From CBDUXP01 sp965371225 [NCBI: uncultured bacterium] (GTDB lineage: Bacteria > Abyssobacteria > SURF-5 > CBDUXP01): a stretch of DNA of 8,260 nucleotides. Shown in pieces: positions 1-7,895 of the stretch (its first letter is position 1; each line of letters begins with the position of its first letter). Below the pieces are notes generated by a model that searched no databases, was not told where the DNA came from, and saw only the letters and a list, made by a program, of their open reading frames with translations. The stretch spans positions 1 through 8,260 of the forward strand of contig CBDUXP010000106.1 of NCBI GenBank assembly GCA_965371225.1. The letters are read 5' to 3'. The translations under genes and the position numbers were made by a program.

Positions 1-2823
1 GCCCCCACCCCCGCCGCCGCCGCCGCAGGTGAGCACCGTCAGCGCGGCGGTGAACAGGAGCAGGCGCACCGGAAGCAGCACGCCGCGGAGACGGCGAATC
101 CGGCCCGCCAGCAGCGCCGGCACTACCAGCAACAACGCCAGGGGCGTGACCCCGGCCGCGGTCGCCGCGGTGTCGACGCCGGCGCGCACTTTGTCCAGAT
201 CGATCTCGTACGCCACCAACAGTTGGACCACCTCGCCCGGCTGGAGGAGGTACACGTCCTCGAAGACCACGGCGGCGTCATCCCCGTCCTCGACACATTC
301 GTCCCCGTAGCAGGAGATGCCCACTGGCAAGGCGAAGGGGCCGGTGGCTTCGATTGCGCCGTCCTGATGTCTGGCCGGGTCCGCGTCGTTCCGGTCGATG
401 TAGAGTTTGACGTTGTCGATCGCGGTGGGGTCCGCGAAGCCGGTCTCGCGGAACACGATCCGTTCGAGGAGGATCGGTTCGTCGAACGACGCGCCGATGC
501 GGAGGCCCAGGACGACCTCGTCCAGCACATCCGTGGTGAGCACGCGGGCCGGCTCCGGATCGGGGAGCCCCAGTGCTGCGGCGTGCAGGGCTTGGCCGGG
601 GCCGGTGGGCAGCGTGAGGATCTCCACCACGGTGAAATTGAACCGGCGCTGGCGCCGGAAGGGCACCGCCTCCTCGAACCGGTCGGTCGGCGCGATGTCG
701 AGCACTTCTTCTTCCGGCGGGACCCGCGTGCCCACGACGCTGCCGACGGACAGCCGGCCGTCGTACGCGCCACTGCCCGCGTACTCGCCGAAATAGTTCG
801 CGTAGATGCCGTCGCCGGCTCGGGCATCCCCATGCCCGTGTTTGCCGTCATCGAACAGCTCGATTTCCAAGACCCGGGAATCGGGCCGGGTGATGGTGCC
901 CCGCACGGTGGCGCCGGTCACGGCCGTGCCGTCCGCCCCGACGGCGGCTTCGATCAAGACGGGTTCCGGCGAGAGGGCCACAAGGGGCGTGGTGGTGACG
1001 GTGAACTGCACCCGCTGCCGGGGATCTTCGGCGCGCACCTTGAACGTTTGCGGCGCCAGGGTCGCGATGGCGTCCACCTGCATCTGCCACGTGCCGGACG
1101 GGGGCGTCAGAATCTGGTAGGTCTGCGACGTGCCGATCTGCTCGAACGTCACCCCCGGGTCCGTGGGGGCTACCGGGGTGCTTTCACCCGGGCGGAAGAG
1201 ATTCAGGTTCAGATCCCCCTCCGTCCAACTGAGGCGGACGATCAATTCCCGCACGAATTCGTCCACGAAGACCCCGGGGCCGTTCGCGTCCTCGATGATG
1301 ACACTCTCTCCGGGGGCGATCTCGTCATCGACTGCCAGGAGTTCAGGAAGCGGCGCACCCGAGAGCAGCAGAATCAATGCGGGCAGATCGCTCACGGACA
1401 CGGCGGTGGCGGAGACGCCGCCCGTCATTTCCGCGATGTCTTCCAACAAGGGGGTGGTGATATCGGTGCCGATGGCGATCGTGTTGACCGCGATGCCTTC
1501 ATCGATCAGCGCTTGCACGGTGCCGGCCACGATCGGGTCATCCCCCTGATTGTGATCGCCATCCGCCAGGAGCACGATCAATTCATCCGGAAAACGTGGG
1601 GTCGCCAGGATTTGTTGCAGGGCCGCGTTCAGCCCATCGGTCACATTGGTTGAGCCAAAGGCCACGAGGCCGTCGATGGCCGAGCGGGCCGCTGCGCGGA
1701 CGCTCTGACTCAGCAGGGGTTGCACGGGAAAGTCCACCGTCGCATCGGTCGCGAAGGACACCACCCCCAGCAACTGGCCGATGGGCGCATTGTCCACCAC
1801 CAGCCTGGCGCCGATCTTGGCCAGCCCGATGCGGTTGTCGATCAGCATGCTTCCGGACCGGTCCAACACCAGCACCAGCTTGTCCGGCGGCGGCGGGATG
1901 GGGATACACCCGGTCGAGAAGATCCAGGTAACGCCGGGGATAAGGGGGATAAACCCGGTCAGGTCATCTTCGGGTTCCCCGAACGGCAGGAAGACGGGCA
2001 GGCCCCGCTCCGCCATGTTGTCTTGCAGCGTTTCCCAGGTCGACGTTCCATGCCGCACCTGCTGCAGGTTCCGAACGAGAATGTCTTCATCCTCGGTCCG
2101 GCCGCGCACGGTCTGCGGGGAGAAACCCGTGTAATGCGCCGTGGCGATGCCGCCGGCGCTCGGCGTGCAGAATTCGGTGCGCAGCACGCGCGGGGATTCC
2201 GGATCGCCGGGGTCCAGGGTCGCCACGGTCGTCGCGCCGCCGTCCATCACGCACGCGGGGCCGCGGTTCTCCGGCGCCGCACAGAAGAAGGCTTCCACGG
2301 GGACGTCCAGGGAAGTCCCGGCCGGCAGCACGAGCTGCGTGGCCGCCCCGTTGTGCTCGTACTCCAGCCCAAACGCATACCGGCCGATCTGTTGCACTAG
2401 GCCCAGCTGGCCAAACACGGAGTCGCCGGTGGCCTTATGCGTGCGCGAAATATAGATGTGGCGGCCGCGTTCGCCCAGACCCAGCACATCGGCGCGGGCT
2501 CCTTCGGTCTCGCCGCTGACGATCACGTCCGCGATTTCCCGGTCCAGAGGACACCCGCCCAGCAGCAGGGTGATCTGACCGAACTGGACCTGCTCTTCCG
2601 TGGCGTTATAGAGGAGGGCGGAACTGGCGTTAAACAGGTCGAACCAGGTACTGGCTTCGGCCTCGTCCACCGGAAAATCGAAGTAGACGGTCAGATTCAG
2701 GAAATACGGCGGTCCAGGGGTGGCATCATCCCGGATATCGCCGAGGCCCGCGCGAGCCACGTGCGGGCTCCCAAGTACTACGAAAAGCAGCGCACCCGCT
2801 GCGACGAACCGCTTGAACCTCAT
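1..2823 (-). CDS. CLCA-like VWA-domain exported protein, partial (3' end beyond left edge)
   Basis: The frame is open for 941 codons from ATG at 2823 to the left edge, so the C-terminus is missing. Residues 1-25 look like a Sec signal peptide (MRFKRF, hydrophobic core, cleavage near ARA-G). Residues about 40-300 resemble the CLCA N-terminal metallohydrolase domain: YAFGLEYE at 149-156, TEFCTP at 216-221 and TWETL at 262-266 match family landmarks. The HExxH site itself reads QQIGR (144-148), so no zinc protease is expected. A VWA domain spans about 314-490, with MIDAS residues D321, S323, S325, T392 and D421 (DRSGS, GSTN, ADGD). A beta-sandwich follows, with FDDG at 657-660 and AGDGIY at 669-674, as in CLCA proteins. 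Residues about 765-880 form another beta-rich domain (VKLYIDRND at 805-813). The end holds hydrophobic stretches 891-907 and 914-932, then Cys933 and at least eight glycines. I infer a cell-surface metal-binding adhesion or scaffold role; no ligand is visible. The coding call is firm and the family call rests on recalled homology. Confidence 0.85.
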   Translation of the reverse strand, partial: MRFKRFVAAGALLFVVLGSPHVARAGLGDIRDDATPGPPYFLNLTVYFDFPVDEAEASTWFDLFNASSALLYNATEEQVQFGQITLLLGGCPLDREIADVIVSGETEGARADVLGLGERGRHIYISRTHKATGDSVFGQLGLVQQIGRYAFGLEYEHNGAATQLVLPAGTSLDVPVEAFFCAAPENRGPACVMDGGATTVATLDPGDPESPRVLRTEFCTPSAGGIATAHYTGFSPQTVRGRTEDEDILVRNLQQVRHGTSTWETLQDNMAERGLPVFLPFGEPEDDLTGFIPLIPGVTWIFSTGCIPIPPPPDKLVLVLDRSGSMLIDNRIGLAKIGARLVVDNAPIGQLLGVVSFATDATVDFPVQPLLSQSVRAAARSAIDGLVAFGSTNVTDGLNAALQQILATPRFPDELIVLLADGDHNQGDDPIVAGTVQALIDEGIAVNTIAIGTDITTPLLEDIAEMTGGVSATAVSVSDLPALILLLSGAPLPELLAVDDEIAPGESVIIEDANGPGVFVDEFVRELIVRLSWTEGDLNLNLFRPGESTPVAPTDPGVTFEQIGTSQTYQILTPPSGTWQMQVDAIATLAPQTFKVRAEDPRQRVQFTVTTTPLVALSPEPVLIEAAVGADGTAVTGATVRGTITRPDSRVLEIELFDDGKHGHGDARAGDGIYANYFGEYAGSGAYDGRLSVGSVVGTRVPPEEEVLDIAPTDRFEEAVPFRRQRRFNFTVVEILTLPTGPGQALHAAALGLPDPEPARVLTTDVLDEVVLGLRIGASFDEPILLERIVFRETGFADPTAIDNVKLYIDRNDADPARHQDGAIEATGPFALPVGISCYGDECVEDGDDAAVVFEDVYLLQPGEVVQLLVAYEIDLDKVRAGVDTAATAAGVTPLALLLVVPALLAGRIRRLRGVLLPVRLLLFTAALTVLTCGGGGGGGG

Positions 2824-3428: not shown

Positions 3429-4301
3429 TCACCCGCGCGGGTGGTATTTCGTGTGTGCGGACTTCAGCCGGTCCTGGCTCACGTGGGTGTAGATCTGCGT
3501 GGTAGAGATGTCCGCATGGCCCAGCAACTCCTGCACGCTGCGCAGGTCGGCGCCCCCCTCCAGCAGGTGGGTCGCGAAAGCGTGCCGCAGGCTGTGGGGG
3601 CTCAGCGTGCGCGGCAGTCCCGCCGCCTGCAGCGCCCGCTTCACGGTCTGCCACACCCGCTGACGCGAGAGCGGCCGGCCGCGCGCGCCGAGAAACACAT
3701 GCTCCTCCGATGCGGGAGCCCGCGACTCAAGATACCGCTCCAGCGCCCCGAGCGCCCGCTGCCCGAGGGGCACCTGCCGCGTCTTGCTCCCCTTGCCGGT
3801 TACGCGCACGAACCCGTCCGCCACGCGCAGGTCGCGCCGGCGCAGGTCGACCAGCTCGCTGACACGCAGGCCGCACCCGTACAGCAGGGTCAGAACCGCG
3901 CAATCGCGCACGCCGTCGGCCGTCTCCCCGTCCGGCGCAGCCAGGAGCCGCTCGATCTGCGCCCGCGACACCACCGGCGGGAGGGGCTGGCCCGTCCGCA
4001 GCGGCTCCATCAGGTCGGTGACATCCGTGGGGATCAGCCCCTCCGCGGCGCAGAAGCGGTGGAGGCGGCGAATGGCCACCTGACGCCGGCGCAGGGTGTT
4101 CGCGGCCAAGCCGCGGGCCTTACAGGCGTACAGGTAGTCGATGACGTCCGTCCGCTGCACGGCCGCCAAGTCCGCATGACCGTGGGTGTCCAGAAACGCC
4201 AAATAGTCCGTGAGGTCCCGGCGATAGGCGTCGCGCGTGTTCTGCGCCAGCCCGCGCTCCACGCGGAGGGTGTCCAGAAAAGTCTGCAGTGGGGCGTGCA
4301 T
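3429..4301 (-). CDS. xerD: Site-specific tyrosine recombinase XerD
   Basis: 290 aa from ATG 4301, close to the usual XerD length of about 298. With XerC this recombinase resolves chromosome dimers at dif under FtsK control. The N-terminal SAM-like DNA-binding domain covers about residues 1-100 ([17 protein letters not shown]). The catalytic domain carries all six expected residues: R146 (GLRVSELV), K170 (GKGSK), H236 and R239 (HSLRHAF), H262 (LLGHAD) and nucleophile Y271 (TTQIYTH). The C-terminal ending YHPRG resembles the HHPRA end of E. coli XerD and favours XerD over XerC or a phage integrase. The start is uncertain: an in-frame ATG at 4337 has a GGGAG 8 nt upstream and would add 12 residues, while ATG 4301 lacks a clear ribosome binding site but best matches family N-termini. 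The gene is divergent from the 437-aa gene. A 12-bp palindrome (ACCCGCGCGGGT, 3431-3442) overlaps its last codons. Confidence 0.93.
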
Positions 4302-4355
4302 GCGGCGCGGCGGGCACCGGTGGGGCCAGTGTACCATCCCGAGCACTCCCGGAAT

Positions 4356-4386
4356 TTGACACGCTGCGGAAAGCATCGATTACCAT
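4356..4386 (+). promoter_or_regulatory. Candidate promoter of the nitroreductase-like gene
   Basis: TTGACA at 4356-4361 is followed after 19 nt by TACCAT (4381-4386; four of six positions match). The spacing is slightly long. An 11-bp palindrome GGTACGGTACC (4390-4400) lies just downstream, about where transcription would start, and could be an operator. The gene start is about 70 nt further on. Confidence 0.4.
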
Positions 4387-4466: not shown

Positions 4467-5780
4467 ATGAGCGACACGCAGCAAAAGATAGGCAGCTTGC
4501 CCGAGGTGGAAGCGGCCTGGAACTACCCGTTGTTCGACGCCATGTTCAACCGGCGGTCCCGCCGCTTCGGGGCCGGCATGGAAATCGACGCGGGGCCGAA
4601 CCAGTTCAAATCGAAGCTCGATCCCCAGCCCCTGAGTGAGCTGGAAGAGGCGATGCTGGTGGCGGCGGCGACCGGCATTACCGGCACGAACCTGGCCGAC
4701 ATGCCCTATCCCGGCCTCAACTGCAACACCATGATGCAGTTCACGGGCCGCACCTACGCGAGCCCCTGCGCCAACCACGGCACGGAACTGTTCTTCACGA
4801 ACGATTCCGGTTGCTACATGGTGAAGCTGCGCGACGTGCAACCGGAAAACATGCGCGAGTACGCGAAGCTGGACGATCGCGAGAAGATCCTCTACATGTA
4901 CCGGGAGAACCGCGTGAAGCTCAGCGACGAGCGGCTCGACATGCCGCGCATGGTACCGGCCATCTTCTCCTTCAACCTGTACAACGTGAACCAGCCGGGT
5001 TCCACCCTGTTCATGCCGGTGACCGATCTGTCCCTGGAGTACATCAACCTCCTGCTCCTCATGACGGATGAGCCGTACTGCATGAACTTCGTGGACGACC
5101 TGAACGACCACTGCAACATGGGCACCGATGAGTTCGTGAAGAGCGGCTACCTCAAGGAGGAACTCGTCTACACCATGACCGGCATCGAGCGCAGCATCAC
5201 CGCGCAGATCGCCGGCGCGGAAGAAGCGTTCATGGGGCAGAACATCATGCTCGCCGAGCAGGCCATGGGCCTGGGCGGCTGGCTGTTCGGCGGCTTCACG
5301 GGCATGATCGCCATGGGCGGCACCCCGTTCGCCAAGGGCCTCGAATTCCGCCACACCTTCGGCAAGGGGAAGAACCCCACCCCGGTCCCGGTGGGGCGCG
5401 ACGGCCTCATGGAGGCCTTGGTCCCGCCGTACGTGAAGGACATGGACGAGGCGGTGGACAAGGTCGTGGACCTCAAGTTCGGCAAGAAGGGCCTGTTCGC
5501 CGCCGGTGGCGGCGCGAACCCGCACGCCGACCGCAAGCACTTCGAAGACGGCACGCCGCGCATCGGCGAGCGCGCCATCGCGGCCACCAAGGCCATCTGC
5601 AATTACATCTGGGAGACGTACGGCCGCTTCCCGGCCACTGCCGAGCCCATGCAGATGCTCATGTGGATCCAGTCCCATCACATCGACATGGAGTTCTACG
5701 ACACGTACTACAAGGACGGGGCGTACACGGACACGCAGCGCCGGCATCAGGAACTCTGGCACAACGGCTGCGACCACTGA
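4467..5780 (+). CDS. Nitroreductase-like protein of unknown substrate (437 aa)
   Basis: The 437-aa product has no signal peptide or evident membrane segment, so it is probably cytoplasmic. Residues 28-34 (NRRSRRF) and 55-73 (PLSELEEAMLVAA...) resemble the N-terminal FMN-phosphate-binding arginine region and first helices of the nitroreductase superfamily. Residues 259-277 (MLAEQAMGLGGWLFGG) resemble the helix after which such proteins contact flavin. Classic nitroreductases have about 200 residues, so this would be an enlarged relative with an insertion at roughly 100-250 and a C-terminal extension at about 300-437. The extension is rich in His, Tyr and Trp (IQSHHIDMEFYDTYY, 401-415). Cys residues at 86, 101, 116, 205, 216, 378 and 435 form no obvious cluster motif. 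Codon use is strongly GC-biased and regular, as in an expressed gene. The reaction is unknown; FMN-dependent redox chemistry is inference. It could also be an uncharacterised family sharing only the fold. Confidence 0.85.
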   Translation: MSDTQQKIGSLPEVEAAWNYPLFDAMFNRRSRRFGAGMEIDAGPNQFKSKLDPQPLSELEEAMLVAAATGITGTNLADMPYPGLNCNTMMQFTGRTYASPCANHGTELFFTNDSGCYMVKLRDVQPENMREYAKLDDREKILYMYRENRVKLSDERLDMPRMVPAIFSFNLYNVNQPGSTLFMPVTDLSLEYINLLLLMTDEPYCMNFVDDLNDHCNMGTDEFVKSGYLKEELVYTMTGIERSITAQIAGAEEAFMGQNIMLAEQAMGLGGWLFGGFTGMIAMGGTPFAKGLEFRHTFGKGKNPTPVPVGRDGLMEALVPPYVKDMDEAVDKVVDLKFGKKGLFAAGGGANPHADRKHFEDGTPRIGERAIAATKAICNYIWETYGRFPATAEPMQMLMWIQSHHIDMEFYDTYYKDGAYTDTQRRHQELWHNGCDH

Positions 5781-6427: not shown

Positions 6428-6718
6428 CTACCGCTGGCGGGTGGAGCGGCGGAGGACCTTCCCCCCGGAACTCATCACCCCGACGGTCGTGCCCTCCGTG
6501 ACCTCCAGCGCCTTGCGCGTCGCCGCAGGGTCGGCACCGGCGATGTACACGGACCGCCGGTAGCCCCGGAGGTTGCGGATACCGTTCCGGATGGTCCTGG
6601 CGCTTTCCACCTCGATCGCGCGGCGGCCCGTCAGGATGTCGGCGCCCCGCCCACGGTTGTACTCGGTCCGTTCCCGTGTGGCGATCCGGCTAGCTGTTCT
6701 GTCGTGTGTCGATGGCAT
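6428..6718 (-). CDS. Small basic protein, possible minimal PD-(D/E)XK-like fold (96 aa)
   Basis: ATG 6718 has GGGAGG (6729-6724) 5 nt upstream, a strong start. The open frame reaches back to 6838, but that extension is Cys-rich, lacks a ribosome binding site and covers the promoter. The 96-aa product is strongly basic at both ends (RIATRERTEYNRGRG; RRSTRQR). Its middle reads GADILTGRRAIEVES (25-39), then SVYIAG (56-61) and TTVGVMSSGGKV (77-88). An Asp (D27), a hydrophobic strand with E36-V-E38 and a following strand are the order seen in PD-(D/E)XK nuclease cores, although the usual lysine is Glu here. I infer a nuclease-like fold, perhaps inactive or a DNA- or RNA-binding derivative. I know no named family. 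The gene is divergent from the glycosidase-like gene and convergent with the 77-aa gene, and its promoter is packed with palindromes. Confidence 0.75.
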   Translation of the reverse strand: MPSTHDRTASRIATRERTEYNRGRGADILTGRRAIEVESARTIRNGIRNLRGYRRSVYIAGADPAATRKALEVTEGTTVGVMSSGGKVLRRSTRQR

Positions 6719-6754
6719 GGTGGCCTCCCAACAACGTCCGTTTCGGCAAATACT

Positions 6755-6769
6755 ACTACAGACTGTAGT
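6755..6769. promoter_or_regulatory. Perfect palindrome, candidate operator (BlaI/CopY-like)
   Basis: ACTACAG and CTGTAGT form perfect 7-bp arms around one base. The core TACA-N3-TGTA resembles the TACA-N-TGTA operators of BlaI/MecI/CopY-type repressors, though those usually have a 2-nt centre. It lies about 8-22 nt downstream of the predicted transcription start of the 96-aa gene, a place where a repressor would block elongation. No repressor gene is in the window. Confidence 0.5.
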
Positions 6770-6783
6770 CCAATACGCACACA

Positions 6784-6881: not shown

Positions 6882-7895
6882 ATGAAGATCAGGTGGATCT
6901 GGATGCTCGCGGCGGCCGTGGGGCTCGCTCCGCTACCGGCCCGCGCGGAACTGGACTACCGCGGCGTTGCGGTCGGCCTGTGGGGCAGCAACCCGAACAC
7001 CACGTACCTGCCGCAGTTCCGTGAGGTCCAGTCCCTGGGCGCGAACGCGGTGCTGTTCCCCGTGCTGCTGTACGTCGACACGGTCGCCGGCTCGACGGTG
7101 TACCCCATCGACGGCCGCACGACGCCGGACGCGGTGCTGCGGCGCGCCGCCCGCGAGGCGCAGGAACTCGGACTACGCACCGCGCTCATGCCCGTGGTGC
7201 GCATCGAGCACCGGGTGGACCGCGAGTGGCGCGGCCAGTTGGCGCCCGTAGACCGCGACGCGTTCTTTGCGAGCTACGGCGAGATGCTGGGGCGCTACGC
7301 CGCCCTCGCGGAGTCGGTGGGGGTGGACCTCTTCCTCATCGGCAGCGAGCTGGCGTCGCTGGAGGACGCGCCGCACTGGGGGCCGCTCATCGAACGCGTG
7401 CGCGCCGCCTACCACGGCGCGGTCAGCTACTCCGCGAACTGGGACCACTACGAACACGTCCCCTTCTGGTCCGCGCTGGATGCGCTTGCACTGACCGGCT
7501 ACTACGAACTCAGCGACACTTTCGACCCCACGCAGGCGCAACTCACCGCCTCGTGGCAGGCCGTGCGCGCGAATCTGGAAAGCTGGCAGGCGCAGCATCC
7601 GGGCAAGCGCATCATCTTCACTGAGGTGGGCTACCCCGCGCAGGACGGCGGCGCGGCCACGCCCTGGGACTACACGCTGGCCAATCCCGTCGACCTGGAA
7701 GAGCAGCGCATGTGCTACGAGGCGTTCATCACCACGTGGCGCGGCCACCCGGCCCTCGCCGGCGTGTTCTTCTGGGAGTGGACGGGCGCCGGCGGCCCGC
7801 AGGACGGGCACTACACCCCGCGCGGCAAGCCCGCCGCCGCCGAAATGCGCGCGTACTTCACGGACGACGCCGCAGCAGCCGGTCCCGCGGAATAG
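6882..7895 (+). CDS. Exported TIM-barrel glycosidase-like protein (GH113/clan GH-A type)
   Basis: 337 aa from ATG 6882. Residues 1-22 are a Sec signal peptide (KIRW, hydrophobic core, cleavage after ARA), so the enzyme works in the periplasm or outside. The mature part is a single TIM-barrel-sized domain. Landmarks follow clan GH-A order: beta-strand ends with GVAVGLWG (28-35), FLIGSELASLE (151-161) with E156 as likely acid/base, YSANWDHY (183-190), TGYYEL (205-210), FTEVGYP (246-252) with E248 as likely nucleophile, and FFWEWTG (296-302). This pattern fits GH113 beta-mannanase relatives and the similar GTA TIM-barrel domain. The substrate is probably a beta-linked polysaccharide or cell-surface glycan; which one is unknown. 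An upstream in-frame ATG at 6837 would put 15 charged residues before the signal peptide and was not chosen. No Shine-Dalgarno site is evident. A weak promoter (TTGGCG-N17-TGTAGA, 6803-6831) is possible. The gene is divergent from the 96-aa gene. Confidence 0.88.
   Translation: MKIRWIWMLAAAVGLAPLPARAELDYRGVAVGLWGSNPNTTYLPQFREVQSLGANAVLFPVLLYVDTVAGSTVYPIDGRTTPDAVLRRAAREAQELGLRTALMPVVRIEHRVDREWRGQLAPVDRDAFFASYGEMLGRYAALAESVGVDLFLIGSELASLEDAPHWGPLIERVRAAYHGAVSYSANWDHYEHVPFWSALDALALTGYYELSDTFDPTQAQLTASWQAVRANLESWQAQHPGKRIIFTEVGYPAQDGGAATPWDYTLANPVDLEEQRMCYEAFITTWRGHPALAGVFFWEWTGAGGPQDGHYTPRGKPAAAEMRAYFTDDAAAAGPAE

Follow-up and report, generated by a model that had tools for sequence, protein, structure and literature searches.

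CLCA proteins are animal mucus proteins that normally carry a zinc-dependent protease part. In a stretch of 8,260 nucleotides (hereafter the window), a gene open at the first base encodes a protein of comparable layout, which reads QQIGRYAFGLEYE at the columns of the HExxHxxxGxxDE motif. A preliminary description, made from the sequence alone, took this protein for a CLCA-like pseudo-protease kept as a structural scaffold. The locus raises two questions: whether the catalytic site has been lost from a genuine CLCA-type domain, and what the protein could do without it.

Gene and domain order

The gene and its parts were placed as follows.

1..2823, (-) strand: CLCA-like gene; ATG at 2823, 941 codons with no stop, open at base 1
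2749..2823, (-) strand: probable signal peptide, residues 1-25 (MRFKRFVAAGALLFVVLGSPHVARA), from the translation read by eye
1924..2712, (-) strand: N-terminal CLCA-type zincin-like domain, about residues 38-300, from alignments with L003/L033 and 11 other relatives
2356..2394, (-) strand: erased active site QQIGRYAFGLEYE, residues 144-156, at the HExxHxxxGxxDE columns, from the translation and alignments
1384..1878, (-) strand: VWA domain, residues 316-480 (PF00092, 5.7e-12; TIGR00868, 4.3e-18)
763..864, (-) strand: choice-of-anchor-X-like stretch, residues 654-687 (NCBIfam, 23.3 bits against a cut-off of 25)
1..165, (-) strand: C-terminal tail; two hydrophobic stretches separated by basic residues, followed by Cys933 and a run of eight or more Gly where the window ends

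The C-terminus of the protein is cut by the window edge, and 941 residues fall inside. The GC content of the three codon positions was 0.70/0.46/0.84, and third-position GC stayed between 0.75 and 0.89 in every sixth of the gene. The unbroken frame of 941 codons and the coding-type GC, which includes the N-terminal third, argue against an obvious pseudogene.

When the 941 codons were scanned with Pfam, only VWA models scored above cut-off, PF00092 covering residues 316-480. The MIDAS was said to be intact at the outset, and its residues are indeed in place: D321, S323, S325, T392, and D421, which we take to be the MIDAS set. TIGR00868 (calcium-activated chloride channel, CLCA subfamily) gave 64.5 bits, against a full-length cut-off of 900.85. 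Its best stretch in the window protein was 308-470; L003, the nearest relative found, matches TIGR00868 positions 260-720 in one piece. Behind the VWA domain, homology extends into the beta-rich region, as seen indirectly through the alignment with L003 (residues 17-732).

The N-terminal family model behaved differently from the VWA models. PF08434 (CLCA_N) was unmatched by residues 1-318 at a limit of E 10, where the HMMER filters discard most matches above about 0.1. The same residues matched no NCBIfam model and a single Pfam model at chance level (E 0.15). Six relatives were scanned with PF08434, which matched L034 (E 0.076) and L038 (E 0.024), both below cut-off, and none of the other four. 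It was found in 0 of 395 genomes of the phylum, but also in 0 of 14 controls, so this count is uninformative. The proposed profile check therefore bore out the VWA half of the assignment (PF00092, and TIGR00868 below cut-off) and left the N-terminal half unmatched by PF08434. Since that model is unmatched, we call the protein CLCA-like rather than strictly CLCA. The designation as a CLCA-like pseudo-protease stands in the sense of homology to bacterial CLCA-type zincin domains with the site erased.

The window protein shares with the CLCA family (PF08434; TIGR00868) the order of a zincin-like domain, a VWA domain with its MIDAS behind it, and later domains, together with the motif landmarks. 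Bacterial and archaeal CLCAs are described by Lenart et al. 2013 (PMC3650047), who also place catalytic-site loss in some members of the family, as in the window. The window protein departs from PF08434 CLCAs in its C-terminal part, which is choice-of-anchor-X-like and carries a tail of bacterial type, and in its active site: HExxHxxxGxxDEY is absent, and both His, the Glu, and the Asp have been lost. The choice-of-anchor-X model scored 34.1 bits in L003, 41.9 in L034, and 42.6 in L035, all three with an intact motif. The tail resembled Synerg_CTERM below cut-off (NCBIfam, E 0.067, residues 889-906), and is possibly a sorting or lipid-anchoring tail, judging from its sequence.

The erased active site

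An intact HExxH elsewhere in residues 40-300 had been named as one finding that would speak against the loss. Neither HExxH nor HxxxH occurs anywhere along the 941 residues that the window covers, and the His residues among residues 1-320 are confined to positions 21, 122, 129, 157, 230, and 258. At the columns of QQIGRYAFGLEYEH in the window, the full-length relative L003 reads HELGHYVFNLHDEY. Both His and the catalytic Glu are thus gone from residues 144-156, as first described.

The register of this comparison was also obtained with a profile of five intact relatives, from which the window was excluded. The profile aligned residues 142-153 (LVQQIGRYAFGL) to its LaHElgHyvygl columns with top posterior. 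Its score was 27.4 bits for residues 41-270 and 190.7 bits for residues 315-746. Because a window-free profile gives the same register, we regard the register as beyond chance. The flanking landmarks reported as retained can be followed in pairs between the window and L003: VMDGG/IMDGG, TEFCTP/TEWCTP, TAH/TAH, and STWETL/SCWEEI.

The fate of the motif Asp needs a correction. It had been described as replaced; it is absent, but HMMER and MAFFT both open a two-residue gap late in the motif (FGL--EY vs FGLxDEY), so that Asp was more likely deleted together with its neighbour. With the gap, Glu154-Tyr155 fall on the EY of DEY, and without it the Asp column holds Tyr; the Asp is gone both ways.

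Five of the twelve homologues carry HExxH at the same columns where the window protein has no catalytic residue, which is the pattern of a pseudometalloprotease. At the level of sequence, we consider the homology, the loss of the catalytic residues, and the retention of the landmarks and the MIDAS to be demonstrated.

Relatives and the number of losses

Relatives were collected from genome searches centred on G001, the genome of L002, a locus reached through the neighbouring gene at 4467-5780. Of 297 genomes of this phylum, 23 matched, nearly all via the VWA domain. L003 (genome G239) was first met there by a match over query residues 16-405 (1.1e-18); a whole-protein phmmer comparison gave 7e-56, and L003 is collinear with the window protein over residues 17-732. 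An N-terminal profile, A2, matched 6 of 395 genomes at E up to 0.01. A second N-terminal profile, A3, built from the window and six relatives, matched 8/148, 4/148, and 4/148 genomes at E up to 0.001, and returned no relative from the class of G001 (0/42 genomes) or the phylum of G002 (0/61). The genome sets overlap; 12 distinct genomes matched in total, with handles numbered to G632, and one protein from each was used. Duplicates were dropped (L003 and L048 are L033; L004 and L050 are L034), as were the re-fetches L040, L041, L049, and L051 (of L036, L037, L035, and L038, respectively) and L039, a second piece of the L038 protein. The other loci of the 297-genome search, L005-L032, were left out, as they matched through the VWA domain or shortly before it.

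The remaining collections added no N-terminal relative. The N-terminal query gave 44 pattern matches in genome_contigs and no relative among them, hence no close orthologue. Nothing was found in viral_contigs with the N-terminal, A2, L003, or L037 queries, and residues 1-318 produced a single chance-level match (E 0.06) in the plasmid collection. The plasmid search with L003 gave 25 rows, 22 of them confined to the VWA part; H2 extends past the VWA domain, and H3 and H4 start before it but after the motif. Both of the two phage rows were restricted to the VWA domain. The patchy spread of the relatives agrees with what Lenart et al. report on bacterial CLCAs (PMC3650047).

All twelve relatives keep both His and the Asp, and in the window protein these three and the Glu are gone. 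Among the 13 aligned rows, the zinc ligands are missing from the window alone. The suggestion that homologues might share the loss was not borne out: none of the twelve relatives found, all of them distant, shows the full erasure. In five of them the motif is intact (L033 and L038 HELGH, L034 HEMGH, L035 HESGH, L047 HEFVH), each followed by DEY. The intact HELGHYVFNLHDEY of L003/L033 presumably marks an active enzyme; this protein resembles the window protein in its landmarks and in three Cys residues, and differs in that motif. L035 has its HESGH intact, yet no VWA domain was recognised in it by Pfam, so the zincin-like domain and the VWA domain are not strictly coupled.

In the other seven relatives (L036, L037, and L042-L046), Leu or Ala occupies the position of the catalytic Glu, and DQY takes the place of DEY. 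Within one bacterial class, 7 of the 148 genomes searched carry this Glu-less clade. Each of them gave a single match, and no active paralogue was seen among the candidates scored, a subset of those from the first look. Like the window protein, the members combine a CLCA_N-like domain and a VWA domain with a disabled catalytic site. Unlike it, they retain HxxxHxxxGxxD, only the Glu being replaced, and probably still hold a metal. They also differ by a long insert before the VWA domain, seen as a long extra stretch in L036 and L037. In the same two proteins an acidic insert, e.g., CGNGRDDDGDASIDERPC, directly follows DxSxS of the VWA domain; as a guess, it could be a calcium-binding loop.

A tree was calculated from the 13 rows with the motif columns excluded, using 200 bootstrap trees. 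The seven Glu-less rows formed one side of a branch (100/99), with the window outside. The window paired weakly with the intact L033 (74/65) across long branches; the tree program warned of the long branches at this join and of an odd letter make-up in L033, L034, and L035. In none of the bootstrap trees (0%) were the intact rows set apart from the rest by a single branch, which favours two losses. A tree uniting the window with the Glu-less rows was not rejected (p-AU 0.155). From these sequence comparisons, independent losses in the window and in the Glu-less clade are favoured, though not proven.

Lenart et al. (PMC3650047) infer about five independent catalytic-site losses in the CLCA_N tree. 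Since repeated loss in CLCAs has already been reported there, the present observations add cases and no new principle. To these known losses the window protein adds an extreme case.

Retained residues and the proposed role

Several residues of the N-terminal domain are retained downstream of the erased motif.

2281..2283, (-) strand: Cys181; Cys column in L033 and L038 (2/12), and in the seven Glu-less relatives a Cys one column earlier
2251..2253, (-) strand: Cys191; Cys column in L033 and L038 (2/12)
2245..2247, (-) strand: Met193, Met-turn-like; Met in 10/12 relatives in the alignment used
2167..2169, (-) strand: Cys219, within TEFCTP; Cys column in L033 and L038 (2/12)

The Cys trio is not general, being confined to these two of the twelve relatives. 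Glu154-Tyr155 match the EY of the five intact relatives. The name "Met-turn" is taken from the metzincins, as used in PMC11266112. The Met-turn-like Met, the EY pair, and the three Cys argue for a folded scaffold.

We consider it likely that the CLCA-like protein is a folded, non-catalytic pseudoprotease, secreted and surface-anchored, whose zincin-like domain serves structure or binding next to a VWA domain with a MIDAS metal. The signal peptide, zincin-like domain, VWA domain, Ig/anchor-like region, and hydrophobic tail would fit a secreted and probably surface-anchored protein. The zincin-like domain would bind no catalytic zinc and would cleave neither itself nor other proteins; it most likely folds, and could adjoin the VWA domain as a structural or binding module. 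The VWA domain, in turn, would bind a ligand through its MIDAS metal, with an adhesive role on the cell surface. A scaffold or binding role beside a metal-dependent VWA adhesin is the likely reading of this architecture.

The probable inactivity of the domain can be set against human CLCA2, the analogy on which the contrast with self-cleaving CLCAs depends. According to PMC10669480, CLCA2 cleaves itself in trans, and replacement of the motif Glu by Gln alone abolishes this cleavage. In the window protein not only that Glu but also the zinc ligands are missing, and its inactivity is strongly inferred. Pseudoproteases of the ADAM family offer a parallel by description. They belong to the metazoan M12 family, and a review (PMC11266112), which makes no mention of CLCA, describes zincin domains without catalytic residues, in which the Met-turn is typically kept and which serve protein contacts.

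The retained EY and Cys residues could have another meaning. Speculatively, the domain may still have a structural site, either metal or disulfide, and in one version of this idea Glu154 and Cys181/191/219 hold a second, structural metal, as in Peptidase_M64, the domain being a metal-stabilised ligand-binding module. In the M64 structure 3P1V, according to PMC3650047, a second zinc is bound by three conserved Cys together with the Glu of DEY, and the window retains the EY and three Cys in common with L033 and L038. The spacing does not agree, however: the Cys lie 37-75 residues past residue 144, as compared with 90-100 residues from HExxH in M64. In an exported protein, the Cys may also pair as disulfides. 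We regard such a metal site as rather unlikely.

Decay of the N-terminal domain was considered as well, that is, a domain that left selection after its activity was lost while the VWA and anchor parts are still used. This would suit the window's position as the sole row of 13 without zinc ligands, and its insertions relative to L003. Identity to L033 is also lower in the N-terminal domain outside the motif (62/217, 29%) than in the VWA domain (63/175, 36%); behind the VWA domain it is 68/212. A decaying domain would not be expected to run without a stop or frame break and with coding-type GC in its N-terminal third too, nor to retain Cys181/191/219, Met193, TEFCTP, TAH, and STWETL, and we judge decay to be improbable.

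That residues 1-318 form a non-zincin module, matched to the CLCA active site by a chance register, would accord with the missing above-chance family match, the low identity to the relatives, and a low-confidence AlphaFold2 model (window sequence alone, residues 19-508, pLDDT 34.7), but it is highly improbable given the collinearity with L003, the top posterior of the independent profile, and the landmarks in common downstream of the motif. When the A3 profile was compared with PDB sequences, it met zincins only, weakly and around the motif (a small zinc protease at 0.024 and an IgA protease at 0.092, not significant).

A broader picture may be drawn, which we put forward tentatively. In bacteria, CLCA-type surface proteases may have become non-catalytic receptors more than once and in two ways: the Glu-only clade is one, and the window protein, which drops the catalytic zinc site and keeps a Cys/Glu structural site, the other. 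Were this true, pseudozincins joined to a VWA domain would make up a class of surface receptors in bacteria, and the older common function of the architecture could be the binding of ligands, not proteolysis. Dead proteases often tell more than live ones about what a domain binds. The intact relative, the clade with the Glu-only loss, and the fully erased window form a natural series, along which one may ask what lies at the core of CLCA-like function, proteolysis or the binding of a ligand. Among the best-ranked open-licence papers, no title or abstract dealt with this protein or with a Glu-less bacterial clade.

Four further genes were noted in the window. The gene at 3429-4376, (-) strand, encodes a XerD-type tyrosine recombinase (TIGR02225, 343.7 bits against a cut-off of 329.6); XerD matched 173 of the 198 genomes searched, with a best identity of 50% among the matches listed. 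The 437-aa protein encoded at 4467-5780, (+) strand, had no Pfam match and a weak NCBIfam nitroreductase hint (E 0.012). Its relatives in genome_contigs, L001 (43%) and L002 (37%), come from MAGs labelled Nitrososphaeria and Deltaproteobacteria. At 6428-6775, (-) strand, lies a small protein with GADI(x7)EVE and no Pfam or NCBIfam match; this arrangement may resemble a PD-(D/E)xK nuclease pattern. The gene at 6882-7895, (+) strand, encodes a GH113-like glycoside hydrolase (PF22612, 3.9e-43).
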